This document shows positions 10,501-54,172 of a stretch of 64,000 bases of DNA, piece by piece (positions within the stretch are counted from its first letter, which is position 1; each line of letters opens with the position of its first letter). The notes beneath the pieces were generated by a model, which saw only the letters and a list, made by a program, of their open reading frames with translations, searched no databases and had not been told where the DNA came from. The position numbers and the translations under genes were made by a program. Source of the DNA: Owenia fusiformis (lineage: Eukaryota > Annelida > Polychaeta > Sabellida > Oweniidae); contig CAIIXF020000008.1 in NCBI GenBank assembly GCA_903813345.2, positions 18,088,822 to 18,152,821 on the forward strand, read 5' to 3'.

Positions 10501-13500
10501 GAGCTCTTAGAAAGTAAGGCGTCGACAACAAATCATGAAATTGTTCTCTTAAATTAGTGCTGCAACACTAATAAGAGAATGCGAACTACACTTCTGTATT
10601 TAATTTCAAAACCTTGAAACACAACAATGAACAATAAAATCATTTCTGTTTTTAATAAAAACTAAAATAAAATATAAATGAAAAAGATAAAAAAGAAAAT
10701 ATATGTATCATTCGATGTCAATAAAATAATAATTAATGTTGAAAGAAAAACTGCTTGAAATATCAAAATACATGAAATGATGTTGCAAGGCCCCTAAATG
10801 GGTAGTTTGAGAACTGAATGAGTTAAAAGGCTAATTCTCCAAATGTAACTAGTCCCAGTTAGAGACAAATGATGATTCTATTCAAAAAAGAAAATTACAG
10901 TTGAAGAAATAATTGCTAAAAGCCATTGTAACAATAGTATTCTGGTCTATAAGGAGAACTTAAGTGTGTCCGATGACGACAATATGCACAGTGGGTGTTT
11001 AAGTTTACGTGTACTGTAGTGTATATGTGGTATACTTTAGTGTTTTATCGTACAATGTTGTATCATGCAACCGTTAAAAATGAACAATCAAAGATAGGCA
11101 GCTTAATTTTAACATGCAAAATGTCACCACCTGTCATTTGTTACATTTGTTGCAGACACCAAATGCTACCATTAAATGCCAAATACTCTACACCATCAAA
11201 AAAAGTTGGAGACTATAACAAAATATCATCACTTGTAGCGAGAATATAAACAGCACATGAATTGGACCCTTATAAAATAGATATGAGGATAAGTTATAGA
11301 TATGAGGATAAGTTAGAGATATGAGGATAAGTTATAGACATGAGGATAAGGTATAGATATGAGGATAAGTTATACTATATAAGTTATATGAGGATAAGTT
11401 ATATGTATATATGAGGATAAGGTATAGATATGAGGATAAGTTATAGATATGAGTATAAGTTATGAGGATACATTATACATATGAGGATAAGTTATAGATA
11501 TAAGGATAATTTATAGATATGAGGATAAGTAATGAGGATAAGTTATAGATATGAGGATACGTTATACATATGAGGATACGTTATACATATGACGATAAGT
11601 TATAGATATGAGGATAAGTAATAGATATGAGGATAAGTTATAGATATGAGGATAACTTATAGATATGAGGATAAGTTATAGATACGAGGATAAGTTATAG
11701 ATACGAGGATAAGTTATAGATATGAGGATGAGGATAAGTTATAGATATGAGGATGAGTTATAGATATGAGGATAAGTTATAGATATGAGGATAAGTTATA
11801 GATATGAGGATAAGTTATAGATATGAGGATAAGTTATAGATACGAGGATAAGTAATAGATATGAGGATAAGTTATATATATGAGGATAAGTTATAGATAT
11901 GAGGATAACTTATAGATACGAGGATAAGTTATAGATACGAGGATAAGTTATAGATATGAGGATGAGTTATAGATATGAGGATAAGTTATAGATATGAGGA
12001 TAAGTTATAGATATGAGGATAAGTTATAGATATAAGGATAAGTTATAGATATGAGGATAAGTTATAGATATGAGGATACGTTATACATATGAGGATAAGT
12101 TATAGATATGAGGATAAGTAATGAGGATAAGTAATAGATATGATAGATATGAGGATGAGTTATAGATATGAGGATAAGTTATAGATATGAGGATAACTTA
12201 TAGATACGAGGATAAGTTATAGATATGAGGATAAGTTATGATATGAGGACAAGTTCAGACAAATTTCAGTTAGATAGACAGATGGACAATCAAGCAATTC
12301 TTTTGTTTTTTAAATATAAATAAACCAAATGATGAAAGCAGGTTTGAGTTTGAAAGCCAATTCTAGTAAATGTCCTCTGAGTAACAAAATTGAGTTATTA
12401 CAAAGAAATTGATGTTGAAACCATGATTTCAATTCAACTTTCCCGTCTAATTTTCGATCTCTCGAGAGGATGTTAGGAACGGCTCGTGATGTGGTACCTC
12501 ATTTATGTGAGTTCATATTTCACACTACTAAGGAGTAAGCAGGTAAATATTTTAACCACCAAAGAGATTCTGAGACACCCAGGGGCACATATGTCACAGT
12601 AACTTTGTTATTTCATGTGAAATAAAGAAATGAGGAAGGAGCATAATCAAATTATGTTAACACAAAGGTCAAAACGTAAAAAAAAATTTGTAGATAAAAG
12701 AGAATTTCATTCCATGACTGTCTAGCTATCGATAATCTGAGAGGTTATATGTCAAACTGACCTTGAAGTTAATCAAGCTTTTTCTCGTTATCTCAAAACT
12801 TATTGATCATGGATTAGAAGATCTAAAACAGAGAGATATTTTCCAGAAGGAAGAACACAAGGTTGATCACGGAAACACTTATACTCAGTGATGCCCAGTA
12901 TCAATTTAATGTAAATTAATGAGGCGTTAGTTTTAATGGTTTCATTGTAGCAATAAATCAAATCGTAATTTCCTGGATTTTGTGAACGGTGTCTCAGAAT
13001 TTAACCTTTTCACTAATTATGTCCCTTGTCTGCTCTTTATACATTGTTCTATAATTAAACGAATCAGATTCAATTTTCTCACAGAATTAACTAAATTACC
13101 GCAATGTGTTTATTGCTTAATCACACGGGATCACATTGTCGCCATTAATAACGGTGTTCTGTTGGCCTTAATTTGTTGCATATTGAAAGATTCGCGTTTA
13201 TGAGTGTCTGCATGACTTTGTGATTATACAACAGGCCCGAACCAGGGAGGTTACTGGGGTTTGAATGAACCTCCCCTTAGCTAAAGATTCTTACAAAATC
13301 ATGCAGTTTTTCACCATTCTGAGAGCTTTTCAAGTAATTTTGGACCAAAATGGTCAAATTTCTTTTGAAAAGTGAACCCCCTTGGCAAAAGCTGGCGACA
13401 GGCCTGCACTACAATATTCAAACAAGAGCTTGCAAACTTGTGTTTTGTTATAACTCATTTTGGGCATCCGAAAAATGAACAATCTTGTGTAATTTTGATA

Positions 13501-16500
13501 TTTTAAGATGATTGGCTACAACAAGGCCAAGAACATTGACAAAGTGGAAAATATAACCTTGTTATATCAAATACAATTAGACCTCAGGCATTTAAATAAA
13601 TTATTAATTGTAAAAAATACTCTCTCATTTAATAATATCACTGTTATCCAGATATTGCAAAATAATACAAAGATGAAAGTTTGCCGACAAAATGTCTCTA
13701 ATATCTAATGGAATGACCTCTATTGCTCTTTTCTAATAAAAGAATCATAATAGAACATGAAAAGAACACCCATATACAATTGATAATCCATAAGTAAGTA
13801 TGAAAAATATCTTATGTCAAAAATGGAGTCTCTCTGAGATGTCCAAAAAATGTTTTTGAGATAGAGCTTTACTGACTTTCAACGTTAAATAAACTCCTCT
13901 CCTGGGATGTGTAAATGTGATATTCTCTCGCATATTCACAAGAAAATACCCAAATTATGTTGTTTTATGGTTGTCTTTATGTTTTTGCTAACTTCAGTTA
14001 ATTCTTGTCGATGTGTTAATAAATGCAATGGCATCATGACCAAACTATGAAACCTTTTATGAGGGAAACACAGTTACTTAAAAGAAAGTAGGCTCATAGA
14101 GGGGCGTGTCTGGATAAATAACAAATACTAAGGCTGACTCTTGACTGACCCCTCGGTGCTTATGGTAACTCCCTGATTCCTAGGTACTTAGGGTGACTCC
14201 CTGACTCCTTGGTGCTTAGGGCAACTCCCTGACTCCTAGGTGCTTTAAAGGAGACTGCCTGACACCTAGGTGCTTAGGGTGATTCCCTGACTCCTAGGTG
14301 CTTTCAGGGAGACTCTCTGACACCTTGGTGCTTAGGGTGATTCCCTGACTCCTAGGTGCTTTAAGGGAGACTCCCTGACACCTAGGTGCTTTTAGGGAGA
14401 CCCCCTGACACCTAGGTGCTTAGGGTGACTCCCTGACTCCTAGGAGCTTAGAGTGACTCCTAGGTGCTTAGAGTGACTCCCTGACTCCCAGGTGCTTAAG
14501 GTGACTCCCTGACTCCTAGGTGCTTAAGGGGACTCCCTGACTCCTAGGTACTTAGGGTGACTCCCTGACTCCTAGGTGCTTAGAGTGACTCCCTGACTCA
14601 TAAGTGATTAGTGTGACTCCCTGACTCCTAGATGCTTAGGGTGACTCCCTGACTCCAAAGTGCTTAGTTTGATCCCCTGACTTCTAGGTGCTTAGGGTGA
14701 CTCGCTGACTCCCTGACTCCTAGGTGCTTAGAGTGACTCCCTGACTCCCAGGTGCTTTAGGTGACTCCCTGACTCCTAGGTGCTTAGGTTGACTCCCTGA
14801 CTCTTAAGTGCTTAGGGTGACTCCCGACTCCTAGGTGCTTAGGGTGACTCCCGGACTCTTAAGTGCTTAGGGTGACTCCCTGACTCCTAGGTGCTTAGGG
14901 TGACTCCCTGACTCCGAGGTGCTTAGGGTGTCTCCCTGACTCCCCGACTCCAAGGTTCTTAGGGCAACTCTTTGACTCCTAGTTGTCGAGTGTAGATTAA
15001 AGAATTCTAGAGACTTACCTGTTCTAGGCTGAGAGGTTCTAAATTTGGTTTCTCAGCAGGAGGTTTGAAGTCTGGACTAGGATCCCTGTAAGGAGAGCGA
15101 CTCTTGGATCTTTTATCTGGCCTGGAAAACAGAAGAAAAATATAATTATGGAATGTACAAACATTTGCAGTCATTTCACATAACATTGTTGATCAACAAG
15201 TTTTGCTCTTACATGATAAATTACAGGATTTTAAATTTCTAAAGGTCACTGGCGGAGCTTGGGGCCGATTATTGAACCTCTTTGGGCATTACTGGGCCTT
15301 ATCAGGCCTTTTTTTAATTTTAGGCTAAATTATCAAGAAAATTGGCCTTTAATTTTTAAAATTTGGGCCTAAAATTTTTTCCACGTCAGCACTGAATTTT
15401 TTTATCAGATTTTAAATTTGCCTCTTCCCTTTGTTGGTTTCCATATCCGCCCCTGTGAAGGTGATTAGTTTGGTATAACTTACTTACAACTTAATTGTAA
15501 AGGTCTGTTTGCCCATGACGTCAATATAAAAGCTTACATGGGACAGATGCAATTCAAGAGAGACACTAAGATTATTCAATGCCCTGACTGTATTGCTCCC
15601 TAAGGGATGGTGTCCAAAGATTTTACAGTTATGGAATAATAAAGTAAATTTTCTTGTTACAGGGGTTTCATTAGCAGCAGGCAACAGGCGATTTTTACCG
15701 TTTGTTTTCACAAAATCGCCTGTTGTTTTTAAGGATTTTTTAACTTTTCCATGTTAAATTTTTGATTCCCATTTATTTTGCCTGTTGTTTTCATTTATTT
15801 AGCCTGTTATTCTAGAGAAACCCCTGTGTTATATTGGAAATTGTTAAACCATTATGATTAAACAAGTATAATGAAATTAACTCAATTATGAACATTTGGA
15901 CATCATCACTAAATCCCTTAACCTCTTGACTACCCAGAGTGACGAGTTGTCTCATCACATTAGAAATTACTTTGAACCCCGACAACATAATCTGTTACAA
16001 AATTTTTCACTAAAATTGCTCTGGACAATTTTCATCCAATTTACAAAAAGAAACATCTCAAATATGTAAATTCACTAGGTTGAGCATTGCCTGGTGTATA
16101 CATGTATGTACTGTATGTAGTAAAATGTCAAAAGCTGGCAAAAATGAAAAATCGTCTGGTTTCAAACCAATTTTAGAGCCTGGGATTCAAGAGGTTAGTT
16201 AACTACTTATGTGAACATAAGATTCATGAATTTATAAGATTAATAACTTTCTTCATAAGTCACAATATTTCAAAAATAATCTTGCATATTTTTTGAAGTC
16301 ATGAAAAGCAATATTTTAATGTTCAAACTTTGCATAGGACCTTAAAGAACATGTACATTGTACTTACTCTGTTACCGCCATTGGCAGTTTCTTTTCTGAC
16401 GGAGGTGTAAGTTCCTGCGGTTGAGCAAAAGTTTTCTTTAAATGTGGCGGAGTGGATGGCGGAGTTCCCTCATAGATTGGCCTAGATTGTGCTGCCCCCT

Positions 16501-35689: not shown

Positions 35690-36310
35690 TATAAAATGGT
35701 TATATACCCTTTATGGTACATGGTATAATGTGGTAAGATGCCCTTTATGGTATATCGTGGTGGGATGCCCTTTTATGATATGACCTGGTTAGATGCCCTT
35801 TTAAGCTATGATATGGTTAGATACCCTTTATGGTACATGGTATAATGTGGTAAGATGCCCTTTATGGTATATCATGGTGGGATCCCCTTTTATGGTATGA
35901 GCTGGTTAGATGCCCTTTTAAGCTATGATATGGTTAGATACCCTTTATGGTACATGGTATAATGTGGTAAGATGCCCTTTATGGTATATCATGGTGGGAT
36001 CCCCTTTTATGGTATGAGCTGGTTAGATGCCCTTTTAAGCTATGATATGGTTAGATACCCTTTATGTTACATGGTATAATGTGGTAAAATGCCCTTTATG
36101 GTATATCATGGTGGGATGCCCTTTTATGGTATGACCTGGTTAGATGCCCTTTTAAGCTATAATATGGTTAGATACCCTTTATGGTACATGGTATAATGTG
36201 GTAAGATGCCCTTTATGGTATATCATGGTGGGATACCCTTTTATGGTATGACCTGGTTAGATGCCCTTTAAAGCTATGATATGGTTAAATACCCTTTATG
36301 GTAAAACATC
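35690..36310. repeat. 117-bp tandem repeat, about 5.3 units
   Basis: The word GATATGGTTAGATA (last units slightly changed) recurs at 35,810, 35,927, 36,044, 36,161 and 36,278, exactly 117 bp apart. Each unit contains four related sub-blocks of the kind TGGTTAGATGCCCTTTTA and TGGTAAGATGCCCTTTATGG, so the 117-mer itself grew from a shorter ancestral unit near 29 bp. Non-coding. Confidence 0.95.
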
Positions 36311-36619
36311 ATATAACATGATATGGTATGATCAGAATCTTATAATATGTGGTAAGAAACTATTTATGGTATGCTATGGGTAGATCCCTGTTTATTGTAT
36401 ACTGTGGCTAGAAACCCATTGTGGTATGCTCTGATTAGAACACTTTTATTGTACACTATATTATGAGTAGAATAGTAGAATGATATGTTGTAAAGAACTC
36501 TATTTTTAAAGTACATTCTAAATGTATATAAACAAATATTTTTATATGAAACAGTTGTAAATCGGTATAAAGAGTTCTTGAAGAATGATCTTCATAGAAT
36601 TAAAGTTAATGCAGTAATG

Positions 36620-36726
36620 AGTGTTGATAATGTCACCACCACAAGTGTTGATTATGTCACCACCACAAGTGTTGATTATGTCACCACCACAAGTGTTGAT
36701 TATGTCACCACCACAAGTGTTGACAT
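36620..36726 (+). repeat. 24-bp tandem repeat within R2 element (unit A)
   Basis: About four copies of GTTGATTATGTCACCACCAC plus AAGT. Read as codons the unit is eight residues long (SVDYVTTT), so it keeps an open frame, but no gene context supports translation. The duplicate is at 44,263-44,367. Confidence 0.9.
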
Positions 36727-37739
36727 ATTGTTGGAGTCTTCAACTTTTTTGTGGATGTTGTTAAGTGGTTGCTGTCTTTGGTGATTGCTAAGTGGTTGGT
36801 GCTTGGCAGCCAGTGTCTGTAACAAATGACAAGTGGTGACTGACTCAAAGACTCATGACACCATTTTCACCATCAACAACTTTTATTGTTATTGTATCAA
36901 TAGGAGGTATGAGTTTATGAGAAAGTGGTTTAGAATTCTAAGCTTTCATATCCTACTTCATATAGTAATTAGTTAGTGGGTCTATATAAATATGGCAGTG
37001 TAGTATGTGGTTTGTCTGAATATATTTGCCTACAACTACATTGCAATCCTTCCATTAACCCACTACTGATCCATAATTTTTTGTCCTTCTTAAACAGCTA
37101 CTGCAAAACACTACCAAGTTCAATTTTAACTGATTGGTGAATATCCTTTTTGTACATGTATGTTAAACAAGACAACTTTTAAAAAATAAAAAATAAAAAT
37201 TGGCTTGATGGAGGATGGGTCTTAAATTTGGGATGTGAATGTGAAATGGAGATTTTATTCTTGGTTCAAAATATGATATTATTTTTATGCCATCACCAGA
37301 AGAGATGACATATTGTTATAGTCTCCAACTTTTTTGTAGATGGTGTTTTGCCAGTTCGTGTTCAGCCTCCATTGGCTGACATCTGTAGCAAATGGCAGGT
37401 AGTGATAGTTTGCATGTTAACGCCTTGTTAAAACTTTGAATTTGATTGACATATTCTCTTGAGAATTCCAATATATATCTGGATATTTCATCTTCGACTC
37501 GGCCCGTTTCTTTCAAGCACACTATACACATAACATTCAACATTAATTTTAAAGTACATAAATGTACAATAAACAAAACGATGTCAAGTTGAGTGTTGAA
37601 ATGTTATTAAACAATTAAATACAGATTTTGTTCATATTTGAGTTACACATGATGATATACGGTATTTAACTTTCAAATCAACTATTATAATATCTGTATT
37701 TTATCAGTCATATGATACAATTACTTGAATATTGTGCCG

Positions 37740-37950
37740 TATACAATTATAAAATGTCATTGTGTCTATGTACATGAAATATATATATATATATTGTAAA
37801 TTAAAATTCATTGTGTTGATATATTATTATATTATTATAATGAAAGCCGACTGTATAGTATATTATATTATTACGGACAAGTGACAACTGATTTAATAAT
37901 ATGTAACTTGTTTACAATCAGCTTTCATTTTGTGTGCAATATACCTATAT
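37740..37950. repeat. TA-rich palindromic stretch (unit A), mirrored at 45,440-45,620
   Basis: A (TA)n run, AATGAAAGCCGACTG and (inverse) CAATCAGCTTTCATT, with TATTATATTATTA tracts between. The duplicate in unit B keeps the arms but differs in the repeat lengths. Likely a decayed MITE. Confidence 0.5.
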
Positions 37951-37977
37951 TTATATACATACACCTTGTATTATACC

Positions 37978-38725
37978 ACCGAACGAAGTAGAGAACCCGT
38001 CCGTCCGTTCGCCCGTCCATGTGTCCTGATGAAATCTCAAAAACCGTCGACGGATTTGATTCAAATTCTATTCACTAATGCATTATGGGCGTAGGACCTC
38101 TGCTCGAGAAAGAATTATAAATATGATCGCTCAATTCAAAATGGCTGCCAATTTTCCTAAAAACGCTATCTGATAACTGTAATACTACTTGATGGATTTG
38201 GTCAAATTTTCATATGCTGATGCCTAGGGACAAAGGGCATTGCTCAAGATAAGATTTTCAAGACGGCAGCAGAATTTCAAAGTAGCCGCCACTTTTCATA
38301 AAAACACGTCATCTTTGATAACTCAAATACCAGTGGACGAATACGGATATGTTGATGCCTAGCGACACATAAGCTCTGCTCAAGAAGGAATTTTCAAGAT
38401 GGCTGCTACTTTTTGTTAAAAACGTAATCTTTGATAACTCAATACCAGTGGATAGATTTGGTTCAAATTTTATTAGCTGATGCATTAAGACATCGCTCTG
38501 CTCGAGAAGAAAATTTCAAGATGGCAGTTGAATTTCAAAATGGCCGCCATTTTTCGAAAAATATCGTTGATAGCTCAAATACAAGTGCAGTGGGTGGATT
38601 TGTTTCAAATTGTATATGCTGATACCTGGGGACAAAGGAGATTTGTTCAAGAGAAAATTTTCAAGATGGACACTATTTATCGAAATATGTTTTGTTCGGT
38701 GGGATTTGCTACTCCGTGGAGATGA
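37978..38725 (+). repeat. Degenerate tandem repeat with ATGGCNGCC words (unit A)
   Basis: Blocks of GATTTGGTTCAAATT, TATGCTGATGCCTAGGGACA, TTTTCAAGATGGCAG and AAAATGGCCGCCATTTTT recur every 115-145 bp, about five times. It begins with CACCGAACGAAGTAGAGAA and clustered CCGTCCGTTCGCC. The shorter version in unit B is at 45,650-46,280. Non-coding or a very old decayed repeat. Confidence 0.7.
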
Positions 38726-39505
38726 TGTGCTTGAGTTTTCCCATCTATTATCGCAGCTTAATTTTTGATTATAAGTTCACTCGACCTTTGTATTTTCTAG
38801 TTCTCATTCTTGTTCTTGTTGAAGAGTTAATCCAACGGTGCTTCTGAAAACTTATTCCCCGAGAAACTTTTTTCATATTTTCTTCAAGGGTGCAATTTTG
38901 TTCGTCTCATCTTTCCAACGTATACAGCAATATTCCGTCTGGACCGGACGCGTCATTCACTATGTTCCTGGAATCAACCATTTACGTACCATACATTATA
39001 TATGTTTTTTAGTTCGTTTAATTATAGAGTATATTATTTGGTTTCTTGAAAAAAATCAAGTTCCATCGTGATAAATATACACTAGTATGCATTTACAATA
39101 ATGAATTTAAATTAGCAATCTAAAAGTCTAAAATGAGCTATTATAGCTAGAATAAATGCGTTGACATCAATTTTACTAGAGACTTATTATGCAATATAAT
39201 GAACTTTTGTAAAATAGTCATCAATTATGTATGTTATACTTAATATTGGCAAGTGCCACTAAATACCTTGTGGGACCCACAGCCTTTATTAGTATTCCTT
39301 GGAATACACTGCATGAGATAATGAAGGACTAAACTAAATATTGATTGGGTTACTGATCTAAAGTAGCACTCAATTAGTAAAACGATAACTATATACTTCC
39401 GGTTTTATCTAATGGGTGCCTGCCTGACATGGCAAACGTTTGATTTTCTGGCGTCATACCCCTGCCCCCCCCCCCCCCCCCATTCGCTCCGTCTCTCTTA
39501 CCCGC

Positions 39506-39649
39506 TTAATCTGGACATCCAAGAACATCAAACGTCATACAACAAGCGCCTTGCCAAGTCTGGGGAATGATCCGAACAAATCTTGCTAGCACTGGTGGTT
39601 CAATCAGGTTTATTGCATGAGTGTATCGGTCCTTATTCCCTGGTAGAAT
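39506..39649 (-). CDS. Copy A exon 4: F5/8C end and stop
   Basis: ILPGNKDRYTHAINLIEPPV through TFDVLGCPD and TAA. The N-x-D and RFVRI-P-W motifs are typical of the C-terminal part of F5/8C domains. A 19-base C run lies about 25 bp beyond the stop. Confidence 0.87.
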   Translation of the reverse strand: MLPGNKDRYTHAINLIEPPVLARFVRIIPQTWQGACCMTFDVLGCPD

Positions 39650-42600
39650 CTTGGAAAATAACATTGTAACTGGTAACGTAAAATAAAAGAGGATAGTAAA
39701 TAAAATAGTAATATATGGTATAGCTTTGATGGGATTTTACATGGTGGGTCAATAAAGAGTATATTTTTATACATTGGCTATCTTCAGAGTACTAGCAGAT
39801 ATGCATTCATGAATGGTACACTGTACTGGTGAATCAAGAATCCAACAAGGGGGGGGGGGGCTATATTTCAAATCGGAATAGATTTTGAAATGTTTGAGCC
39901 CAGTACACTAGTATGGATAAATATCTTAATTTCCAATTACGAAATTACATTTTGCTATTTTGTGCACCATTTAGTGATTTATAAATGATCAGAATCCAAA
40001 TGTCACGTATGACATATTAAAAACATCTTTACCATACAAGAATAATTTGTCTTTATATAGTTTCCATTTTGTCAAGACTTGATGCAATATGTTGTTTTAA
40101 CAGAGGTGTTGTTTCATTAGTAAGTTTCAAGTAAAAGAAACTATTTACTATTTTTCTATTGGTATGTTTGAATTATTTCGCATCAAAAATTATTAATTAT
40201 AAAATTATATTTTTCAGTATCGTGCATACTTTTCTAATATAAATATCATATTTGCAATTACCTCTCTGTACTCTTCCAAACTGTTTTCAGTTTCTCCATA
40301 CAAAAACTTGTACGATGTTACCCATTGAATATACGCCCCGTCTGTTCTTCCCCGAGTCAGGACACCCGTCACTAACATGAGTTCACCGAGGTCCGCTTGA
40401 ATCCATCGATCGGGTTCGCTACCCGGACCCCAGCATGAATTCAGGCCTGACCTAGAATAGAACAAATGATTTCATGATGCATATTTTACATACAATGAAA
40501 CGTAAAACATTTTCTGATTATTCAGTTGTAGGGCTGAAAAGAAATATCCTGATTGTTAGATATCAAAACACTACCCATTCTAAGGCACTTCTAAATGTGG
40601 TTATGGGTCCTTAAATTATAATATATCTCGAGGATGTTTAAGGATGTTCTGAAAGTTCAACATGCGTGGGATATTGTTGAAATGATGAATGCCATTCGCA
40701 GTCCTATCAGAGGATATGTAGAGGATATTCTTTTTATCTATAGTCGATATCCATGAGTTGATAAACATGATTGTCCGAGAAGGTCATAGGATATCAAATT
40801 CATCCTATGTGTTTAAAGATATATTACTATGTGTGTTCTAAATATAGCTCACAATAACTTTACAATGAAATATATAAAAAAAAGTCAATAAATATCAAAA
40901 AACTCAAATATTTGTTTAAACTGAACATACTCTTACAGTGGTTGCATGAAAACATTATACTCCTTTTAATATGCACATAATGGTCATCACTCTTAAAAAT
41001 TATTACTTGGATTTCCTTATATTGAGAAATTGTACTACTCATTTCAAGTCAAAAATTACTTAAATAATCTTGAACTGCTGAATAATTTTTAAGTAATTTT
41101 TAAGTAATTCATTTATGGTGAATTTACTAATGCAAGGAGAGAAATTGAAATACTTACTGTAGTAATTGTAATACTCATTTACATAATTAAGCAATTAAAA
41201 AACTCAAAATGACAATATAAGTTAAACCTACGTAAAATGAAGTAAAACTAAGTATTTAACTTTAATAATACTCAAGTAATTCATTTTTAAGAGTGATATC
41301 TTTATTCGGCTATTTCTAAAACCAATTTTGGCCAATTCAAAAATATTTTAATACGATTTTAGTAGGAAGCGCATACCAAAATTATTTTGTGTCATATATA
41401 TTAAGTATCTATAGGATAAATAACATCACCTACGCCTTTATCTCTGTTCTTATTACTTACTTACGACTAGACTTGATTTTAACAAATTCTCATTTTATTT
41501 TGTTTACATTCTATGAACCATATCTGAATGAAAGAAGAATCATATCATTTGGAGCAAAACGTCAACATGTCATTTTTATTCCGATAGATCTGCGTATATC
41601 TGATTTTTGAAAGAAAAATCATTTTGTCATTGTCATTACCTAGAAGGAGTTCATTTGGTTATTTTGTGAGGAACACGTGCAGGAATGATTACCAATTACC
41701 CAACCCCCCCCCCCCTCAAAGCTCACTCGTGGCGAGCACTCACAAAGCTAGCAAAGTTAATTGGACGATCGCAATTCTTTCGAGTTTCAATGGTCGAAAC
41801 AAAAAACAGTTCTTCAATTCCATTCAAATAATCTTTTATGATCTCAGCAATCATACAGGCCTCCAATATATTCGCGATCCAATATAACGATTTTGATTTT
41901 TTAAAGTTAATCTTTACATGCTGATTCAAGTCTGATACTTACACTTGCTGTGAGTCTAATCTACCTCTGCTCGGGACATGTGCAGTATTGTAATACCCCG
42001 ACGCAGTGATACTTGCATCACCAACACTGTAAATATCTCCAGATACAAGTTGTTCTCTGCAGTTAACTAAATTTTAAAAATAAGTTTGTGATATTTAATA
42101 ACTAATATATATATATCAGGCCCATAACCGGCTTTTGCCAAGGTGGTGTCCACTTTTCAGAAAAATTCCAGGGGGTTCACTTTGACAAATTTGGCCCAAA
42201 ACCAGATGAAAATGCTCAGAATCATGAAAAACTGCATGATTTTGAAAGAATTTTTGGCCCGAATCCCTCGACCCCCCCCCCGTCTACGGGCCTGTTATAT
42301 ATACACCCAGAGTAAATCTGACAATGTACCGAAGGTAGGCTCGTGAACATTATTTATAAACGATTCTTTCAAACTTCAATAAAAACAAAACAAGTATAAT
42401 AACAAGTATAATACAGAACATATTCATAACGAAAATGTTCTCACTTACACAACCCGAAAAAACTAACTTTTAATTTTGACGTCGCAGTGGCCTAAGGAAA
42501 CCATTTCTTTTTCGGGTAGTGTAGTTTATATAATTATGTTATTGACAAATATGATCAATCATAGGCAAGTTATGTTGCATTGATCAGGAATGCTTATGGA

Positions 42601-43362
42601 TTTGCTAAGAATTAATAACTCCAGAGAATCTGCGAATTAAAAATTCCCCATACAACGATGCATTTAGGCATTGAAATGGGCATTTTTAATCGAAAGCTTA
42701 GTGAATATCATAATTTACAATTTTTCAATAAGAGTGGTTAGATATGACATATTGGTACTAATAGAAACGTCAGAAACCCCAAATTTAGATAGTTGCATTT
42801 TTACCATTTCTGAAGTTTAACACGAGATGCTTAAATCAAAAACGCTATTTCTCTAAATCTCAAAGTCATCGATGCTATCTAAATAAATACAAAACAGTTG
42901 CCCATATCGAACACTCTGTTCACACAAGAAAATTCACTAAGATTTCATTGTGATTTTGAAAGTTATCCCAAAATTATTTAGAGAGAATTGCAATTTTAGT
43001 GTCATGCACAGTCAATGCCTGAATCAAAATCAGTGAAAATAATACACCTTACCATGTTGAGAATGGTAATAATGATCACTTGCAGTATTCGGAACCGCGT
43101 GCCCTCCTATAGTTCCGATAAACTCGCACACTTTATCACTGCTTCCTCCAACCGTCATCAGATTGTACGATTTACAGAGCCATTCTTCCAGCAAACACCG
43201 AATAGCACACTCACTCACCGAGCCGACGCTAATCGTTTTTGTGACGTTATCTGTTCTGCTTATATTATCGAATTTATAGTAGGTTTTTGTTTTAGTTCCA
43301 TTCCTATGGCTAATATGAAGAAGTAAGATCAAATTGAAGAGGTACATGTGCTTTGATTTCAT
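39506..43362 (-). CDS. Secreted PAN/Apple plus F5/8C domain protein, copy A
   Basis: Four exons: 43362-43053, 42066-41943, 40451-40262, 39649-39506, total 768 nt, 255 aa, with GT/AG junctions in phase. MKSKHMYLFNLILLLHISH is a signal peptide. A PAN/Apple-like module follows (CAIRCLLEEWLCKSYN with a later Cys). The remainder is an F5/8 type C (discoidin) domain from VNC to LGC: SGDIYSVGDASITASGYY, WIQADLGELMLVTGVLTRGR, YIQWVTSYKFLYGETE, ARFVRIIPQTWQGACC. The terminal Cys pair of discoidin domains is present. Such domains bind glycans or phospholipid outside the cell, so a lectin-like or matrix role is likely (inferred). The stop TAA directly follows the last domain Cys (GCPD then stop). A tandem paralogue lies about 9.8 kb downstream. 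Confidence 0.85.
40262..40451 (-). CDS. Copy A exon 3: F5/8C core
   Basis: SGLNSCWGPGSEPDRWIQAD through SLEEYRE, the strand region with the W-x-Q-x-D-L-G motif of discoidin domains. Acceptor TTCTAG, donor GTAATT. Confidence 0.87.
40986..41297. mobile_element. MITE private to unit A
   Basis: Ends ATCACTCTTAAAAATTATTA and (inverse) ATCACTCTTAAAAATGAATT. The interior contains AAGTAATTTTTAAGTAATT repeats. The aligned position in unit B lacks about 400 bp including this element, so it was inserted in A or lost from B. Confidence 0.7.
41943..42066 (-). CDS. Copy A exon 2: start of F5/8C domain
   Basis: Begins with the first discoidin Cys (VNCREQLVSGDIYSVGDA) and ends PSRGRLDSQQ. Acceptor AATTTAG, donor GTAAGTAT. 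Too short to stand out as an open frame. Confidence 0.83.
42117..42294 (-). repeat. Dispersed 200-bp repeat, family R1, unit A intron
   Basis: Reverse orientation, with CAGGCCCATAACCGGC and ACGGGCCTG ends. Present at the same place in unit B (51,968-52,140), so it predates the duplication. Confidence 0.8.
43053..43362 (-). CDS. Copy A exon 1: signal peptide and PAN/Apple module
   Basis: 103 codons plus one base. The Cys pattern C-x3-C-x6-C and a further Cys in KVCEFIG fit a short PAN/Apple domain. Donor G/GTAAGG. Confidence 0.85.
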
Positions 43363-43885
43363 CGTTCTGTGGAGTTCGCAATCCTTGTTTCAATACCTTC
43401 TAGGCTCTTATTATATTGGATTGGCTCGTTTCTCTCTGTCCCCTAAGGAAAGTTCCGCAACTAGAATTTGAAGTTGTAAAATATAAATGAAAGTATCATC
43501 CGAGTAGACATGCGTAGATTATGGCCTAATCAGTTAATGACGTTTGCAAGCCTAGAGGCTGCAATAATTAAGATTATGTATTTTTGTTTCCTTTTATTCA
43601 GTCGTGACCAATTGCTAGAATTGACTGATGTAAATTAAATATCCAATGGAGGCAAACTTTAATCAACATTTATGATTCGGCAAAGATTGACGGTTTGGCC
43701 ACACCCTATATCTTGCATACTTCTATTTACTCGATATTGATATTGGCAAATGGGCCATGATCGATAAAACTCATTATTTTGGGCATAATTGGTTCGGTAT
43801 CCCGTTGAAGCTAATGTCTATTTTGTAATGTTATCAAGGGATACATGGGATCAACTATCGGAGGTATCGAAAGTCGAAACAGTTA

Positions 43886-44207
43886 CACTCCCCTCCATAA
43901 GTCTGACGACCGGAAGTTCCTTTTTAAATCATACGTTTATGCGATTTTTCAAAATTCATCCATGAATTTCCAAACTATTGCACTAATGCCTTGGTCACAT
44001 ATGATCTGATCCACCGGCCGTCGCCCGGCCGATTGAGTGTTTTGTTCAATATTGTATACAATTTTGAACAAAATACTCAATCGGCCGGGCGCCGAACCAA
44101 ATGTGACCAAGGCATTAAGGAGCAAAATAAAGATTCTAGCATTGACAGGATTTAGCATGATGTTATCAAATGAAGGCTTTCAGTTCCTAAACTTATGGAG
44201 GGGAGTG
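43886..44207. mobile_element. TA-flanked MITE with CACTCCCCTCCATAAGT ends (unit A)
   Basis: Terminal inverted repeats CACTCCCCTCCATAAGT at both ends with TA flanks. The orthologous copy sits at 53,953-54,172 in unit B, and the same ends bound the 1.86-kb palindrome at 60,577. It closes the duplication unit. A hairpin is nested at 43,984-44,117 in this copy only. Confidence 0.8.
43984..44117. repeat. Hairpin element nested in the unit A MITE
   Basis: TAATGCCTTGGTCACA and GTGACCAAGGCATTA are inverse, as are GCCCGGCCGATTGAGT and ACTCAATCGGCCGGGC. The loop is about 45 bp. GC-rich arms contrast with the AT-rich surroundings. Unit B has unrelated sequence here. Confidence 0.75.
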
Positions 44208-44262
44208 TATGTAAAACAAAATTTAGAATGATCTTCATAGAATTAAAGTTAATGCAGTAATG

Positions 44263-44367
44263 AGTGTTGATTATGTCACCACCACAAGTGTAGATTATGT
44301 CACCACCACAAGTGTTGATTATGTCACCACCACAAGTGTTGATTATGTCACCACCACAAGTGTTGAC
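44263..44367 (+). repeat. 24-bp tandem repeat within R2 element (unit B)
   Basis: Four to five units of the GTTGATTATGTCACCACCAC repeat, the counterpart of 36,620-36,726. Confidence 0.88.
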
Positions 44368-46696
44368 AATGACATATTGTTGGAATCTTCAACTGTTTTG
44401 TGGATGTTGTTAAGTGGTTGCTGTTTTTGCTGGTTGCTAGGTGGTTGGTGCTTGGCGATCAGTGTGTCTGTAACAAATGACAGGTGGTAACTGACTCAAA
44501 GACTCATGACACCATTTTCACCATCAACAACTTTTATTGTTATTGTATCAATAGGAGGTATGAGTTTATGAGAAAGTGGTTTAGAATTCTAAGCTTTCAT
44601 ATCCTACTACAAATAGTAATTAGTTAGTGGGTCTATATAAAGATGGCAGTGTAGTATGTGGTTTGCCTGAATATATTTGAATATATTTGACAACTACATC
44701 GCAATCCTTCAATCAACCCACTACTGATCCATGATTTTTTGTCTTTCTTAAACAGCTACTGCAAAACACTACCAAGTTCAGTTTCAACTGATTGGTGAAT
44801 ATCCTTTTTGTACATGTATGTTAAACAAGACAACCTTTAAAAATAAAAATAGAAAGATTGGCTGGATGGAGGATGGGTCTTAAATTTGGAGTGTGAATGT
44901 GAAATGGAGATTTTATTCTTGGTACAAAATATGATATTATTTTTATGCCATCACCATAACAGATGACATATTGTTATAGTCTCCAACTTTTTGGTAGATG
45001 GTGTTTTGGCAGTTTGTGTTCCGCCTCCATTGGCTGGCATCTGTAGCAAATGGCAGGTGGTGATAGTTTGTATGTTAATGCCTTGTTAAAACTTTGAATA
45101 TGATTCACATATTCCCTGAGAGTTCCAAAATATACCTAGATATTTCATCTTCGACTCTGCTTGTTTCTCTCAAGCACACTGTACACATAACATTCAACAT
45201 TAATTTTAAAGTACATAAATGTACATATGTACAATAAACAAAACGATGTCAAGTTGAGTGTTGAAATGTTATTAAACAATTAAATACAGATTTAGTTCAT
45301 ATTTGAGTTACACATGATGATATACGATATTTAACTTTCAAATCAACTATCATAATATCTGTATTTTATCAGTCATATGATACATTTACTTGAATATTCT
45401 GCCGTATACAATTATAAAACGTCATTGTGTCTATGTACATGTACATGAAATATATATATATAATATTGTAAAATTAAAATTCATTGTGTTGGTATACTAT
45501 TATTATAATGAAAGCCGACTGCATAGTATATTATATTATTACAGACAAGTGACAGCTGATTAGTATTCAATAATATGTAACTTGTTTACAATCAGCTTTC
45601 ATTTTGTGTGCAATATACCTATATTTATATACAATCACCTTTTATTATTCCACCGAACGAAGTAGAGAAGCCGTCCGTCTTTTCGCCCGTCCATTCGTTC
45701 ATGTGTCTTGGTGAAAACTCAAAAACCGTCGACGGATTTGATTCAAATTCTATTTACTAATGCATTATGGGCGTAGGACCTCTGCTTGAGAAGGAATTAT
45801 AAATATGATCGCTCAATTCAAAATGGCTGCCAATTTTCGTAAAAACGCTATCGGATAACTGTAAGAGTCGATAAGAGATATATAATACTAGTTGATGGAT
45901 TTGGTCAAATTTTTATATGCTGATGACTTGGGACAAAGGGCATTGCTCAAGATAAGATTTTCAAGACGGCATAGCGACACATAAGCTCTGCTCAAGAAGG
46001 AATTTTCAAGATGGCTGCTATTTTTTGTGAAAAACGTAATCTTTGAAATACCAGTAGATTTAAGAAAATTTCAAGTTGGCAGCTGAATTTCAAAATGGGC
46101 GCCATTTTTCAGAAAAAATCGTTGATAGCTGAAATACAAGTGCAGTGGGTGGATTTGTTTCAAATTGTATATGCTGATACCTGGGGACAAAGGAGATTTG
46201 TTCAAGAGAAATTTTTCAAGATGGACGCTATTTATCGAAATATGTTTTGTTCGGTGGGATTTGCTACTCCGTGGAGATGATGTTCTTGAGTTTTCCCATT
46301 TCTTATCGCAGCTTAATTTTTGATTATAAGTTCACTCGACCTTTGTATTTTCTAGTTCTCATTCCTGTTCTTATTCTTGTTGAAGAGTTAATCCAACGGT
46401 GCTTCTGAAAACTTATTCCCCGAGAAATTATTTTTTCATATTTTCTTCAAGGGTGCAATTTTGTTCAACTAGTGCGTCTTGTCTTTCCAACGTATACAGC
46501 AATATCCCGTCTGGCCGGACGCGTCATTCACTATGTACCTGGAATCAACCATTTACGTACCATACATTATATATGTATAGAGTATATTATTTGGTTTCTT
46601 GAAAAAAATCAAGTTCCATCGTGATAAATGTATACTAGTATGCATTTACAATAATGAATTTACATTAGCAATCTAAAAGTCTAAAATGAGCTATTA

Positions 46697-49086
46697 GAGA
46701 GTTTAAGATTAGCGTAAATAACCCATTTACCTATACCTATACGTAGTTTGTTATTACACTAAGCGGTATTTTACCTAAGTTACAGGGTTCACGATACGTA
46801 ATTACCTGTAAATGACCGAAGATAGGTAATTCGAAAACGTATGTTTTTATCCAACAAATTATGTCATTTCTAGATCAAATATCATCCATTAAACTTTAAA
46901 ATAGTAACAACAAACATTTCTCATTCGATCTACATAGAAATTAAGTGGTCGAACACATTCATTGATGCGATAAACGATGCCATGTGATGATGCATGAAAT
47001 TGTTGAATTTACACATTCTTCATAAGTTTTGCTTATTGTAAATGTATGTATGTATAATTTATTTACCTCTTAAATAAAAGAGAGTTACATTCATATTAAC
47101 ATGTAGAGAAAATTAAATAAAATTATAAAACATATTTGTGTTACTTGATGTTAAAGGTAAAGAGGATAACTAACTTTTATCCACAAGAAATTGCCTATGC
47201 CTGTGTAACTCGTACACATGCATAGCTATGAGTAACAGAGTCTCCTTATCATCATTGTATACAGTTCCTAGAATCACTTTAAGAATATAATCGTCGTTCA
47301 TTACATTCAGATTACCCCTCGCTAAATTGAGTAAGGGTTTTCTAACATCAGTAAAAGCTGGACAAGTAATCAAGAAATGCTTAACACTTTCTCTTTCGTT
47401 AAGATCACAAAATATACAGATATCTGATAAAGTAGTGTCACCCTCACGGCGTCTACTGTTAAAATATGTCGAGGTTAATAATTTGACCATCATTTTACAG
47501 AGGTATAATACATTGGGATTTTCTTTTGCGATCACCCACCATACATTCGGTTTTAGGATAGACAACGATCCTGTCACCACGTTGAGATTTTTATACATTA
47601 ATGATGATAAAACAGTACTATAATTGTGAAAACTCTTGACACGTCCGTAGACTTCAGTTCTAAATTCTTGTTTTGAAGGGATTTCTGCATTAAAAATCAT
47701 GTTCTTAACATAGTCTATGAGGTTGTACTGCACAACAGTATCCCACATTTGAGATAATGGAGATTTCAGACCTTGAGATGGTGATTTTAAATACATCATC
47801 CGTATTAACCTTTCTAAACAAATGACCTTATATATACAGCTTACAGGTAGCCTTAACAACATATACAGAAACATCAATCTATCACAGTCAATTTTTGCTT
47901 TAACAGACATCCATCCAAGCAGACTAGTGGCGACAGGGTCTGGCGTATTCTTTGGTAATGTCTGAATGCGTTTTCCGACCTCTTTGTGCAGACCTTCCAT
48001 TAGATAAATGTCATTGTTAGTGTAAGGTATTACTGCACAACCATAAGTCAGAGTTGGATAGGAGAATGACCAGTACAGCTTTGATCCAAGCAAGGGATGT
48101 ATACCACCGCACCCATTGCCTAGACCTAAGAGTGAACAAAATTTTCTTCTTGCACAAGATATTGCAGTTTTAACATGTACATTTGTACTACCCAGTGGTA
48201 TTCCAACATGCTGAGCAGAGTTAACAATTTTAAGCGAATTTTTACCAAGTTTAAAATCTTGAGCAGCCCTTTTCCCTGGGCCAAAATACATGATGACACA
48301 TTTGTCTGGGTGGAATTCAAATCTCCAGCGAAGACTGTAATCATAAGCTAATTGAAGTAAAATATTCATTTGGTGATGACCAGTAGTAATAAGAGCAAGA
48401 TCATCTGCGTAAGCCGGGCAACCTACAGGGTGATCCCCAATTTTAGCAACTGCCTGACTGTTAACCAGCTCGTGTAATAAATCAGCCAAGTAAAACTGAT
48501 ACAAGACCATACTACAAACCCCACCTTGGTGGACTCCCCGGTGGACATTGAAAGATTCTTGGTTTAAAATTCCACTTACAAAAACTTTACATTTGTATTT
48601 ACAATAAGACTGGTACAAAATTCGCCACGCTAGACCATTTACACCGTTGTGATATAGCTTCCAGAACAGACCGTCAATCCAAGTACCGTCAAGTATGAAG
48701 TCAGCTGTTTGAATTGTTTAACTTTACTATTTGGTCACTCTCATTGTTGGATCATGCTAGAAATTTAACATTTCGCCTTAAGTCACTGCCCCATTAGCGG
48801 GCCCACAAGCAACACTCCCTCCCTACAGTAGCTACACCACACTCTCTCTGAAGTATATAACATTCTTGGAGGTGACATGTACTGGAATGTACCATATAAG
48901 CCATCGCATGGTTTTAATTCTATAATTAGGATGTCATTTTTATCATTAATTGTAGCATAAGGTTTCGTAGCTTTTTACGTTAATCTTAAACTCATTTTGC
49001 AATACGCATTACCTATACGCATCCGTAACAAACATACGAATAGGGATAGGTACACGTATGTTTTTACGCTAATCTTAACCTCCCTA
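46697..49086. mobile_element. 2.39-kb TIR element carrying a LINE RT fragment, private to unit B
   Basis: Unit A reads GAGCTATTATAGCTAG where unit B has GAGCTATTA, the element, then TTATAGCTAG, giving a 3-bp TTA target duplication. Left end GAGAGTTTAAGATTAGCGTA and right end (inverse) GGAGGTTAAGATTAGCGTAA are imperfect inverted repeats continuing for about 60 bp. A second, internal copy of the end motif (GTTTAAGATTAACGTAAAAA, inverse) lies near 48,975. The TTA target suggests a PIF/Harbinger-like DNA element. The reverse-transcriptase fragment occupies 47,170-48,710. Confidence 0.8.
47170..48710 (-). pseudogene. 5'-truncated non-LTR retrotransposon reverse transcriptase
   Basis: An uninterrupted minus-strand frame of 482 codons from 48,618, in frame with about 30 further residues upstream (WIDGLFWKLYHNGVNG). 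Contains the RT motif GVHQGGVCSMVLYQFYLADL, the catalytic box YADDLALIT, a thumb region, and a C-terminal zinc knuckle CIFCDLNERESVKHFLITCP typical of LINE RTs. The finger subdomain, first catalytic Asp region and endonuclease are missing. Intact frame suggests a fairly recent insertion. Clade not assigned. Confidence 0.88.
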
Positions 49087-49346
49087 TTATAGCTAGAATA
49101 AATGCGTTGACATCAATTTTACTAGAGACTTATTATGCAATATAATGAACTTGTAAAATAGTCATCAATTATGTATGTTATACTTAATTGGCAAGTGCCA
49201 CTAAATACCTTGTGGGACCCACATCCTTTATTAGTATTCCTTGGAATACACTGCATGAGATAATGAAGGACTAAACTAAATATTGATTGGGTTACTGATC
49301 TAAAGTAGCACTCAATTAGTAAAACGATAACTATATACTTCCGGTT

Positions 49347-49586
49347 TTATCTAATGGGTGCCTGCATGACATGGCAAACGTTTGATTTTCTGGCGTCATA
49401 CCCCTGCCCCCCCCCCCCATTCGCTCCGTCTCTCTTACCCGCTTGGTCTGGACATCCAAGAACATCAAATGTCATACAACAACCTCCATGCCAAGTCTGA
49501 GGATTGATCCGAACAAATCTTGCTAGCACTGGTGGTTCAATAAGGTTTATTGCATGAGTGTATCGGTCCTCATTCCCTGGTAGAAT
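49347..49586 (-). CDS. Copy B exon 4: F5/8C end with extended tail
   Basis: ILPGNEDRYTHAINLIEPPV through TFDVLGCPDQAGKRDG and the Gly run. The tail after GCPD depends on the length of the adjacent homopolymer, so its frame is easily changed by slippage. The true end of the protein is uncertain. Confidence 0.75.
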   Translation of the reverse strand: MLPGNEDRYTHAINLIEPPVLARFVRINPQTWHGGCCMTFDVLGCPDQAGKRDGANGGGGQGYDARKSNVCHVMQAPIR

Positions 49587-52500
49587 CTTGAAAAATAACA
49601 TTGTAACTTGTAATACAAAAAAAAAGAAGATATTAAATAAAATAGTAATATATGGTTTAGCTTTAATGGGAGTTTACATGGTGGGTCAATAAAGAGTATA
49701 CTTTGACGATCTTCAGAGTACTAGCAGATATAGAATGAATCAAGAATCCAACAAGGGGGGGGGGCTATATTTCAAATCGGAAAAGATTTTGAGATTTTTG
49801 GGCCCAGTATACTGGTATGGATAAATATCTTAATTTCCAATTACGAAATTACATTTTGCTATTTTGTGCACCATTTAGTGATTCATTGAATGATCAGAAT
49901 CCAAATGTCACGTACATATGGCATATTAAAAAAACATCTTTACCATACAAGAATAATTTGTCTTTATATAGTTTCCATTTTGTCAAGACTTGATGCAATA
50001 TATGTTGTTTTAACAGAGGGGTTGTTTCATTAGTAAGTTTCAAGTAAAAAAAAAATTATTTAATCTTTTTCTATTGGTATGTTTGAATTATTTCGCAATA
50101 AAGATTATTAATTATAAAATTATATTTTTCAGTATCGTGCATACTTTTCTAAGAAATATCATATTTGCAAGTACCTCTCTGTACTCTTCCAAACTGTTTT
50201 CAGTTTCTCCATACAAAAACTTGTACGATGTTACCCACTGAATATACGCCTCGACTGCTCTTCCCCGAGTGACGACACCCGTCACTAACATGAGTTCACC
50301 GAGGTCCGCTTGAATCCATATATCGGGATCGCTACCCGGAGCCCAGCATGAACTCAGGCCTGACCTAGAAAAGAAAAAATTAATGATTTCATGATGCATA
50401 TTTTACATACAATAAAACGCAAAACATTTCCTGATAATTCAGTTGTAGGGCTAAAAAGAAATATCCTGATTGTTACATATAAAAACACTGCCCGTTCTAA
50501 GGCACATCTCAAAGTGGTTATGGGTCTTTAAATTATAATATATTATCATTTATCCTATGCCAAGTAGAGTTTTAGGGAGATAAGTTGGTAAGATATATCC
50601 CGTATCCTGATTTTGAGGTTTCCATATCCTGAACCTCCATATCTCCCGCTCCAGGGCATATCTTCCCCCTTTGAAAACAAATGTGAAAAAATAAGAAAAA
50701 TTCAAAAAAATTCAAAAAAGAACAAAAATTGAAAAAAATTTAAAAATGTGAAAAAAAAATTAAAAGAAAACTCTACTTGGTATAGGATAAAGCAGTTATG
50801 TAAGGTCGGTTTGGATATTGGGTTCATCCCTCGTGAGATATGCATATCTACCCTCGGTCCCTACGGTCCCTCAGGTAGATATGTATATCTCCCTTTGGAT
50901 AAACCCCATATCCAAAACCTCCCAGTACATAGCCCTAAAATATTTCGAGGTAAGGATGTTCTGAAAGTTCAACATACGTGGGATATTGTTAAAATGATGA
51001 ATGCCATTCGCAGTCCTATCAGAGGATATGTAGAGGATATTCTTTTTATCCATAGTCGATATCGATGTGTGGATAAACATGATAGTCCGAGAAGGTCATA
51101 GGATATCAAATTTATCCTATGTGTTTAAAGGTATATTACTATGTGCGTTCTAAATATAGCTCACAATAACTTCACAATGAAATATATAAAAAAGTCAATA
51201 AAAATCCCAAAACTCAAATATTTGTTTAACCAATTTTGACCCTTTCAAAACTATTTTAATACGATTTTAGTTGCGCATACCAAAATTATTTTGTGTCATA
51301 CATATTAAGTATCCATAGGATAAATAACATCACCTACGCCTTTATCTCTGTTAATTGGAAGAAACTTCTAATATTATTACTTTAATAAATTCTCGGTATT
51401 TTAATTTGTTTACATTCTATAAACCATATCTAAATTGAGGGAATGAAAGGATAATCATATTATTTGGAGCAAAACTTCAATATGTCATTTTTGTTCCGAT
51501 AGATCTACGTATATCTGATTTTTGAAACAAAAAATCATTTTGTGTTGAAGGAGTCTTGTATCTTATAATGTGAGGAAGACGTACTGCAATGATTTCTTTA
51601 ATAACGATTTCAGTTTAATCAAACTATTAGCTAAAGGTTAATTGGACGATCGCAATTCTTTCGATGTTCGAAACAAAAAACAGTTCTTTAATTCCATTCA
51701 TATAATATTTTATGATCTCAGCAATCATACAGGCCTCCAATATATTTGCGAGCCAATATAATTTTTCAAATATTATTTTTACATGCTGATTCTTAGTCTA
51801 ATACTTACCCCGCCTGTGAGTCTAATCTCCCTCTGCTCGGGACATGAGCAGTGTTGAAATACCCCGACGCAGTGATACGTGCATCACCAACACTGTAAAT
51901 ATCTCCAGAGATGAGTTGTTCGTTGCAGTTAACTAAATTTAAAAAAAAAGTTTGTGATATTTTTTATCAGGCCCATAGCCGGCTTTGAAGTGGTGTCCAC
52001 TTTTCAGAAAAATTCCAGGGGGTTTACTTTGACAAATTTAGCCCAATATCAGGTGAAAATGCTCAGACTCGTGAAAAACTGCATGTTTTGAAAGCATTTT
52101 TGGCCCGAATCCCTCGACCCTCCCCCCGTCTACAGGCCTGTTATATACACCCAGAGTAAATCTGACAATGCACCGAGGGTAGGCTAATACTAACTAGTAC
52201 TTTTAATTCGTGAACATTATTTATAAACGATTCTTTCAAACTTCAATCAAACTTCAATAAAAACAAAACGTATATAAGTATAATTACAGAACATATTCAT
52301 AACGAAAATATTCTCTCTTACACAACCCGAAAAAATCTAACTTTTAATTTTGACGTCGCAGTGGCCTACGGACACCATTTGTTTTTTTCCGGTAGTGTAG
52401 TTTATATAAGTATGTTATTGACAAATATGATCAATCATAGGCAAGTTATGTTGCATTGATCAGGTATGGATTTGCTAAGAATTATAACTCCACAGTTGCG

Positions 52501-53100
52501 AATAGCAAATGCCCCACACAACGATGCATTTCGGCATTGAAATGGGCATTTTTAATCGAAATCATTTACAATTTTTTCTCTGTTTCTCTAAATCTCAAAG
52601 TCATCGATGCTATCTAAATAAATACAAAACAGTTGCCCATATCGAACACTCTGTTCACACAAGAAAATTCACTAAGATTTCATTGTGAATAAGAGAGTTA
52701 TCTCAAAATTATTTAGAGAGAGTTGCAATTTTTGTGTCATGCACAGTCAATGCCTGAATCAAAATTAGTGAAAATAATACACCTCACCTTGTTGAGAATG
52801 GTAATAATGATCACTTGCAGTATTCGGAACCGCGTGCCCTCCTATAGTTCCGATAAACTCGCACACTTTATCACTGCTTCCACCAACCGTCATCAGATTG
52901 TACGATTTACAAAGCCATTCTTCCAGCAAACACCGAATAGCACACTCACTCACCGAGCCGACGCTAATCGTTTTTGTGACGTTATCTGTTCTGCTTATAT
53001 TATCGAATTTATAGTAGGTTTTTGTTTTAGTTGCATTCCTATGATTAATTATATGAAGAAGTAAGATCAAATTGAAGAGGTAAAGGTGCTTTGATTTCAT
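49347..53100 (-). CDS. Secreted PAN/Apple plus F5/8C domain protein, copy B
   Basis: Four exons in the same phases as copy A: 53100-52788, 51932-51809, 50364-50175, 49586-49347, total 867 nt, 288 aa. Signal peptide MKSKHLYLFNLILLLHIINH, PAN module and F5/8C domain are intact, with amino-acid substitutions clustered in the discoidin part (SCWAPGSDPDIW versus SCWGPGSEPDRW). The codon that is TAA in copy A is CAA here, so translation continues 32 residues through a poly-C tract read as Gly (KRDGANGGGGQG) and ends VMQAPIR. A GTAAGA donor one base beyond GCG could alternatively splice it to an unseen exon. Confidence 0.82.
50175..50364 (-). CDS. Copy B exon 3: F5/8C core
   Basis: SGLSSCWAPGSDPDIWIQAD through SLEEYRE. 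Donor GTACTTG, acceptor TTCTAG. Confidence 0.87.
50549..50940. mobile_element. Insertion private to unit B with two hairpins
   Basis: TTTATCCTATGCCAAGTAGA and TCTACTTGGTATAGGATAAA form one inverted pair (50,549 to 50,791). GGTTTGGATATTGGGTT and CCCCATATCCAAAACC form a second hairpin (about 50,810-50,929). Unit A lacks this block at the aligned site near 40,630. Confidence 0.65.
51809..51932 (-). CDS. Copy B exon 2: start of F5/8C domain
   Basis: VNCNEQLISGDIYSVGDARI through RGRLDSQA. Same 124-bp length and phase as in copy A. Confidence 0.83.
51968..52140 (-). repeat. Dispersed 200-bp repeat, family R1, unit B intron
   Basis: Counterpart of 42,117-42,294, with CAGGCCCATAGCCGGC and ACAGGCCTG ends. 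Confidence 0.8.
52788..53100 (-). CDS. Copy B exon 1: signal peptide and PAN/Apple module
   Basis: One codon longer than copy A in the signal peptide region (HIINHRN versus HISHRN). The PAN part is almost identical. Donor G/GTGAGG instead of GTAAGG. Confidence 0.85.
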
Positions 53101-53952
53101 CGTTCTGTGCAGTTCGTTCGCATTCCTTGTTTCAATACCTTCTAGGCACTTACTTTATTGGCTCGTTTCTCTCTGACCCCTAAAGAAAGTTCCGCAACCC
53201 GAATTTGAAGTTGTAAAATATAAAATAAGGTATCATCCAAATAGACATGCTTAATAGAGCGTAGAACTTGGGTGTGTGGCTCAACTTTTTGTTCCTTGAA
53301 CTTCATCTTGGTGGATACATCAATACCTCAATATGAGGTTATCGTACTCAGGCTTTAACTGTAATACATGGTGGCCCCAAAATCAGAAACGCCTTTCTTT
53401 ACATATGTTTAGAAGATCAACGTCGTCGGTCTTATCCTTATCAGTTTATTCAAAAGTAAGCCTATTTTGAATTGTCATTAGCAAGATGAACAATGAATGC
53501 GAAATTATATAAAGTTGATTATATAAATGTTAAAGAAACTATTGAACTTTTAAAGCGTATGTAATTTGCTTGAGTAAAAGTCCTTAATCAGTTAATGACG
53601 TTTGCAAGCCTAGATGCTGCAATAATTAAGGGGTGTATTTTTGTTTCCTTTTATTCAGTCGTGACCTATTGCTAGAATTGACTGATGTAAATTAAATATC
53701 CAATGGAGGCAAATTTTAATCAACATTTATGATTCGGCAGAGATTGACACACCCTATATAACATCTTGCATATTTCTATTTACTCGATATTGATATCGGC
53801 AAATGAGCCATGATCGATAATCGATGAAGCTATAGGCCTATTATTTTTGGCATTATTGGTTCGGTATCCCGTTGAAGCAAATATCTATTTTGTAAAGTTA
53901 CCATGGGATACATGGGATCAACTATCGGAGGTATCGAAAGTCGAAACAGTTA

Positions 53953-54172
53953 CACTCCCCTCCATAAGTTTGATAACCGGAAGTTCCCTTTTAAATCATA
54001 TGTTTATGCGATTTTTCAAAATCAATCCATAAATGTCCATATTGCATTCACTATGAATTATTAACTATTATTGACCATTGCATAAAGGAACGAAATAAAG
54101 ATTTTAGCATTGGCAGGATTTAGAACATTATCAAATGAAGGCTTCCAGTTGCCACACTTATGGAGGGGAGTG
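53953..54172. mobile_element. TA-flanked MITE with CACTCCCC ends (unit B)
   Basis: Same termini and flanks as 43,886-44,207. It lacks the nested hairpin and marks the end of the duplicated segment. Confidence 0.78.

Follow-up and report, generated by a model that had tools for sequence, protein, structure and literature searches.

Related Mobile Elements

The Pangu group of the PHIS (PIF/Harbinger-ISL2EU-Spy) superfamily is described, in the passages available from PMC4482050, as producing ANT target duplications and having termini that usually start with AG or GG, whereas PIF/Harbinger proper has a TWA (TTA/TAA) target duplication (PMC4482050). The MITE studied here resembles Pangu in its 3-bp ANT duplication, which empty sites support, and in its termini starting with AG. 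It differs in being non-autonomous, in imperfect inverted repeats extending to about 60 bp (11–40 bp in Pangu) and in duplications whose centre bases often disagree, a feature of which those passages make no mention (PMC4482050). With the Tourist/mPing MITEs of PIF/Harbinger, as characterized in part of PMC4561436, it shares short length, non-autonomy and a 3-bp duplication whose centre base varies; the Tourist/mPing duplication is TWA rather than ANT.

In the window (the 64-kb stretch of Owenia fusiformis DNA analysed here, contig CAIIXF020000008.1, 18088822–18152821), a member of this MITE family occupies one of two tandem paralogous units and has a LINE fragment nested in it. These are almost certainly two independent insertions stacked one upon the other, which is an ordinary kind of event and involves no hybrid mobile element.

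Insertion in One of Two Tandem Units

Units A and B, at about 36582–43972 and 44225–54039 of the window, are tandem paralogues whose pieces are 85–94% identical. Their alignment shows the insert to be present in B and absent from A, with the flanks of the insert in B matching A on both sides of the empty site (Table 1), and pairwise alignment of the insert ends reveals imperfect inverted repeats over about 60 bp. The first-pass annotation had delimited the insertion by the unit A empty site and described inverted repeats of this length, and both points are confirmed. It had also named TTA as the duplication and compared the element to PIF/Harbinger; the 3-bp size and the near relation stand, while the register is corrected to ANT (here ATT), which fits the copies and empty sites, and a duplication of ANT rather than TWA speaks against PIF/Harbinger in the strict sense. 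Because both flanks of the window copy read TATTA, TTA is one of several equivalent registers at this site. The ANT register holds across copies and empty sites, and the whole element is therefore placed at 46696–49085.

Table 1. Coordinates of the features of the composite insertion and its empty site in the window.
Feature	Position	Strand	Basis or remark
Empty target site, single ATT, paralogous unit A	39140–39142	.	Alignment of units; letters checked
MITE left target duplication ATT	46693–46695	.	Unit A empty site has one ATT; letters checked
MITE right target duplication ATT	49086–49088	.	Letters checked
Left terminal inverted repeat, imperfect	46696–46753	+	Pairwise alignment of ends
Right terminal inverted repeat, imperfect	49026–49085	-	Pairwise alignment of ends
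Internal second copy of terminal motif	48966–48993	-	Seen in the window and in other MITE copies
Left MITE part, begins A-GAGAG	46696–47048	+	95–98% identical to 16 compared copies
Right MITE part	48698–49085	+	Without roughly 11 bp near 48705 that empty copies have
GTATG, LINE duplication copy beside LINE 3′ end	47044–47048	.	Against 16 empty MITE copies; letters checked
GTATG, other LINE duplication copy	48693–48697	.	Against empty copies; letters checked
5′-truncated LINE: 3′ part of ORF2 and 3′ UTR ending in (ATAC)n	47049–48692	-	Own-genome comparison
482-codon frame: part of RT domain and region downstream of it	47170–48618	-	ORF list, Pfam

The MITE Family

A search of the genome with the insert as query returned two separate sets of matches: end pieces without RT, in which the two MITE end pieces adjoin each other directly, and the RT stretch without end pieces, with one end nearly constant and the other variable. 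This search scored 40 of 382 candidates, and its counts are lower bounds. The element is about 755 bp long, and its terminus matched at 447 places with up to 3 mismatches, compared with 19 for the reversed control; 80 loci (L001–L017 and L033–L095) representing part of this family were fetched, some of them with common flanks (L037/L038, L042/L045 and L052/L061). From the first 17 end-piece loci fetched, 16 were compared at the junction, leaving out L015, a tandem array.

The family has the properties of a MITE, being short, multi-copy, bounded by terminal inverted repeats and devoid of coding capacity, and the two MITE parts of the window copy contain no ORF that reaches 60 aa. The termini read A-GGGAG in most of the copies listed and A-GAGAG in the window copy and L003. 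In the family member L001 the internal copy of the terminal motif lies 89 bp inside the right-end copy.

Several family members depart from the standard structure. Four tiny elements of 128–129 bp (L059, L064, L065 and L072) carry the MITE right end on both sides, three of them with ANT at both sides. Longer terminus-bounded copies were found at L033, L035 and L037/L038, with extra sequence starting near MITE position 444–460; the extra sequences of L033, L035 and L037 do not match each other. L036 and L043 are terminus-bounded copies of 4–5 kb that have foldback-like interiors in common. We considered the longer copies as autonomous elements and rejected this, since the extra sequence, near 444–460 in L033, L035 and L037/L038, lies at other places of the MITE in the rest; no transposase was recognised by eye in their frames, among which the L044 frame alone was run against Pfam. 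L002 and L044 are two MITEs that point in opposite directions and interrupt the same abundant repeat at one and the same position.

Target Duplication and Classification

The 80 loci and the window copy (81 sources) yielded 71 terminus pairs, from which three with duplicate flanks and four mis-paired copies (L008, L013, L014 and L015) were dropped to give 64 copies for analysis. Their flanks follow the pattern ANT-A[GGGAG...CTCCC]T-ANT, and 55 of the 64 show A.T at each end. A weaker palindromic preference extends outside ANT, with GAY before it (G in 30, A in 44 and T or C in 51 of the 64 copies) and RTC after it (A or G in 57, T in 41, C in 20).

Two other registers were tried and rejected. 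For TTA, the whole triplet is equal at both ends in 11 of 40 copies, against 34 of 64 in the larger ANT set. TA does border nearly all MITE copies, as a Tc1/mariner-like duplication would require, but for L043, L002 and L052 the target in the empty site lacks TA, and the empty site of unit A falls 3 bp short of the length expected under a TA duplication.

The TWA duplication of strict PIF/Harbinger elements does not fit the copies and empty sites, and the two Pangu hallmarks are present: A.T on both sides at the frequency given above, with the centre base equal in only 34 of 55 copies, and termini starting with AG or GG. Judged by sequence features, the Pangu group of PHIS appears to be the better match for this MITE than PIF/Harbinger proper. 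At least 150 DDE_Tnp_4 matches exist in the genome, the nearest, as judged by eye against the MITE termini listed, about 9.6 kb from one of them; comparison of these matches with the listed termini revealed no autonomous copy of the family and no transposase tied to its termini.

The LINE Fragment and Its Relatives

The retrotransposon belongs to what we take to be the APE-type two-ORF LINEs (non-LTR retrotransposons). Such elements combine endonuclease and RT in one frame (seen here in a relative), 5′ truncation and a constant 3′ end with a microsatellite tail, and we see no notable difference between them and the element described here. The fragment in the window is 1.64 kb long. Its 482-codon frame matches RVT_1 (E 9.9e-11) and stays open up to the 5′ truncation point, in keeping with its first-pass description as a 5′-truncated LINE RT with an intact frame.

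The RT stretch occurs at no fewer than 22 other places among the matches listed, and 15 of these were fetched. Each of the 15 has this (ATAC)n tail at its 3′ end, after which the sequence differs from one to another as judged by eye. Eight of them start at eight different points and seven extend past the start of the window copy, so that variable 5′ truncation is coupled with a fixed 3′ end, as expected of an APE-type LINE. Over the matched pieces they are 86.5% to 99.6% identical to the window copy. One relative (L018) has a frame of 1167 aa, stop to stop, with both Exo_endo_phos (2e-11) and RVT_1 (3e-18), and this union of endonuclease and RT domains in a single ORF identifies the LINE as APE-type. 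The upstream frame of L018, 346 aa from stop to stop, has no Pfam match above the cut-off.

A LINE Nested in a MITE

The point at which the LINE sits in the window copy is intact in all 16 MITE copies compared, and 66 of the 80 fetched loci match unbroken across it; the other 14 include the miniatures of about 128 bp (L059, L064, L065 and L072). The LINE piece of the window copy was found in none of the 80 fetched loci with MITE termini, and MITE sequence in none of the 15 fetched LINE loci. The composite junctions (36 bases on the left, 27 on the right, up to 3 mismatches) each matched once in the assembly, at this locus.

The LINE has a candidate target duplication of its own. GTATG is present once in empty MITE copies and at both LINE ends in the window copy, which partly answers the call for a LINE-type duplication: the motif is there, at 5 bp at most, and it overlaps the (ATAC)n repeat unit. 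Because the tail itself is (ATAC)n, the edge is ambiguous and fewer than 5 bp may in fact be duplicated; the small size and the overlap make the duplication weak evidence when taken alone. By eye, no clear longer duplications were seen around the other LINE copies inspected among the 15 fetched. About 11 bp of MITE sequence is missing beside the LINE 5′ junction in comparison with empty copies, a detail that counts against our preferred explanation.

The history that we favour involves a non-autonomous MITE of about 755 bp, which would have been moved in trans by a PHIS/Harbinger-related transposase into unit B with an ANT duplication. LINE RNA would have been copied into the MITE by target-primed reverse transcription, which presumably stopped early and so produced the 5′ truncation, the 1.64-kb fragment with its (ATAC)n tail and the GTATG duplication. 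The RT frame would be open because the LINE copy is young, and not through use by the MITE.

It is conceivable, though improbable, that the MITE had already acquired the LINE at another site and that a single cut-and-paste event brought the two together to unit B. Such a move would leave no second copy behind, but nothing positive points to it. Moreover, the closest LINE relatives are at least 99% identical to the window copy over their matched stretch, against 98.3% (left) and 96.1% (right) for the closest MITE halves among the 16 copies compared; this fits a later arrival of the LINE, although copy-to-copy identity does not date this insertion. The first-pass annotation had offered, as one option, a LINE landing in a MITE before the MITE moved; the landing is borne out, whichever of the two events came first.

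The annotation's other option, a hybrid element in which a DNA transposon had taken up the RT fragment and carried it to new sites, can be dismissed with near certainty: the RT does lie wholly between the termini with its frame open, but it is absent from the 80 other terminus loci, each composite junction was found once, the 3′ end of the fragment is that of free-standing LINE copies, and the main expectation, that this RT piece would recur in several copies, failed in this assembly. It was the genome search with the terminus pair that answered the hybrid-element claim, as had been proposed at the outset: the same RT was sought between termini at different sites and found in none of the fetched loci. 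The picture is instead the one anticipated for a simple insertion, with the 80 other terminus loci fetched free of this RT piece, and an RT piece bearing its own microsatellite tail and short duplication. Nothing found suggests co-mobilisation of the RT piece and the MITE, and no account of MITEs capturing an RT was seen among published titles and abstract openings.

Another MITE copy (L044) contains, at a different position, a C-terminal piece from a different LINE; the zf-RVT match of this piece is weak, at 22.1 bits against a curated cut-off of 27.5.

Centre-Base Mismatch between the Two Duplications

Of the 55 copies flanked by ANT on each side, 34 carry the same centre base in the two duplications and 21 do not. 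When the pairing was shuffled, 22.6 were equal on average, and 34 was reached in 2 of 10000 shuffles. Since the observed equality exceeds the shuffled mean, the duplication is real, and we rejected on the same comparison the pure version of the alternative, in which there is no duplication and one base is carried along. The mismatch is concentrated at the centre, as 9 of 64 copies lack an outer A or T at one end or the other.

Paralogous empty sites were sought for 9 of the 21 mismatched copies and found for four (L002, L052, L057 and L003, the sites of the last being only about 85–87% identical); two further ones came from L043, where the element lies inside a MITE, and L044, in the same repeat as L002. 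In all six, the target's centre base survives at one end and not at the other. Eight matched copies were queried and three compared with fetched paralogues. Both ends agree with the target in L059 and in L035, where the comparison is with the nearest paralogue in a satellite whose other copies vary; L054 is ambiguous, as neither of its ends has the centre base of its paralogues, which have also diverged in the adjoining sequence. In the window copy both ends agree with the centre base of the empty site (ATT).

If each end is taken to retain, independently of the other, the base of the target or of a donor, 39% of copies should be mismatched, against 38% observed; this model was built after seeing the data. 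We tentatively speculate, while regarding it as doubtful, that the MITE might move with single-stranded donor ANT overhangs that pair with the ANT overhang of the target, a mispaired centre being resolved randomly at each end. If so, the target duplication would be a donor-target hybrid holding a one-letter memory of the previous location. As a general rule this is opposed by mPing: elements carrying TCA duplications placed 1 of 46 new insertions in TCA, in a passage that is silent on whether both ends were read (PMC4561436). That mPing paper was the only one found on non-matching duplications among published titles and abstract openings (PMC4561436). Should the mismatch hold up, it would allow the cutting and joining of Harbinger-related elements to be read from genomic sequence. 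The analysis also yields a well-sampled family of ANT-type MITEs in which the two duplications differ at a single base far more often than at the outer bases.

Other Repeats in the Window

Tandem arrays are present at 11277–12255 (19-bp units), 14145–14943 (28-bp units) and 35696–36303 (117-bp units). About 1 kb at 61067–62068 matches its own reverse complement at 93%, forming a large foldback or palindrome.
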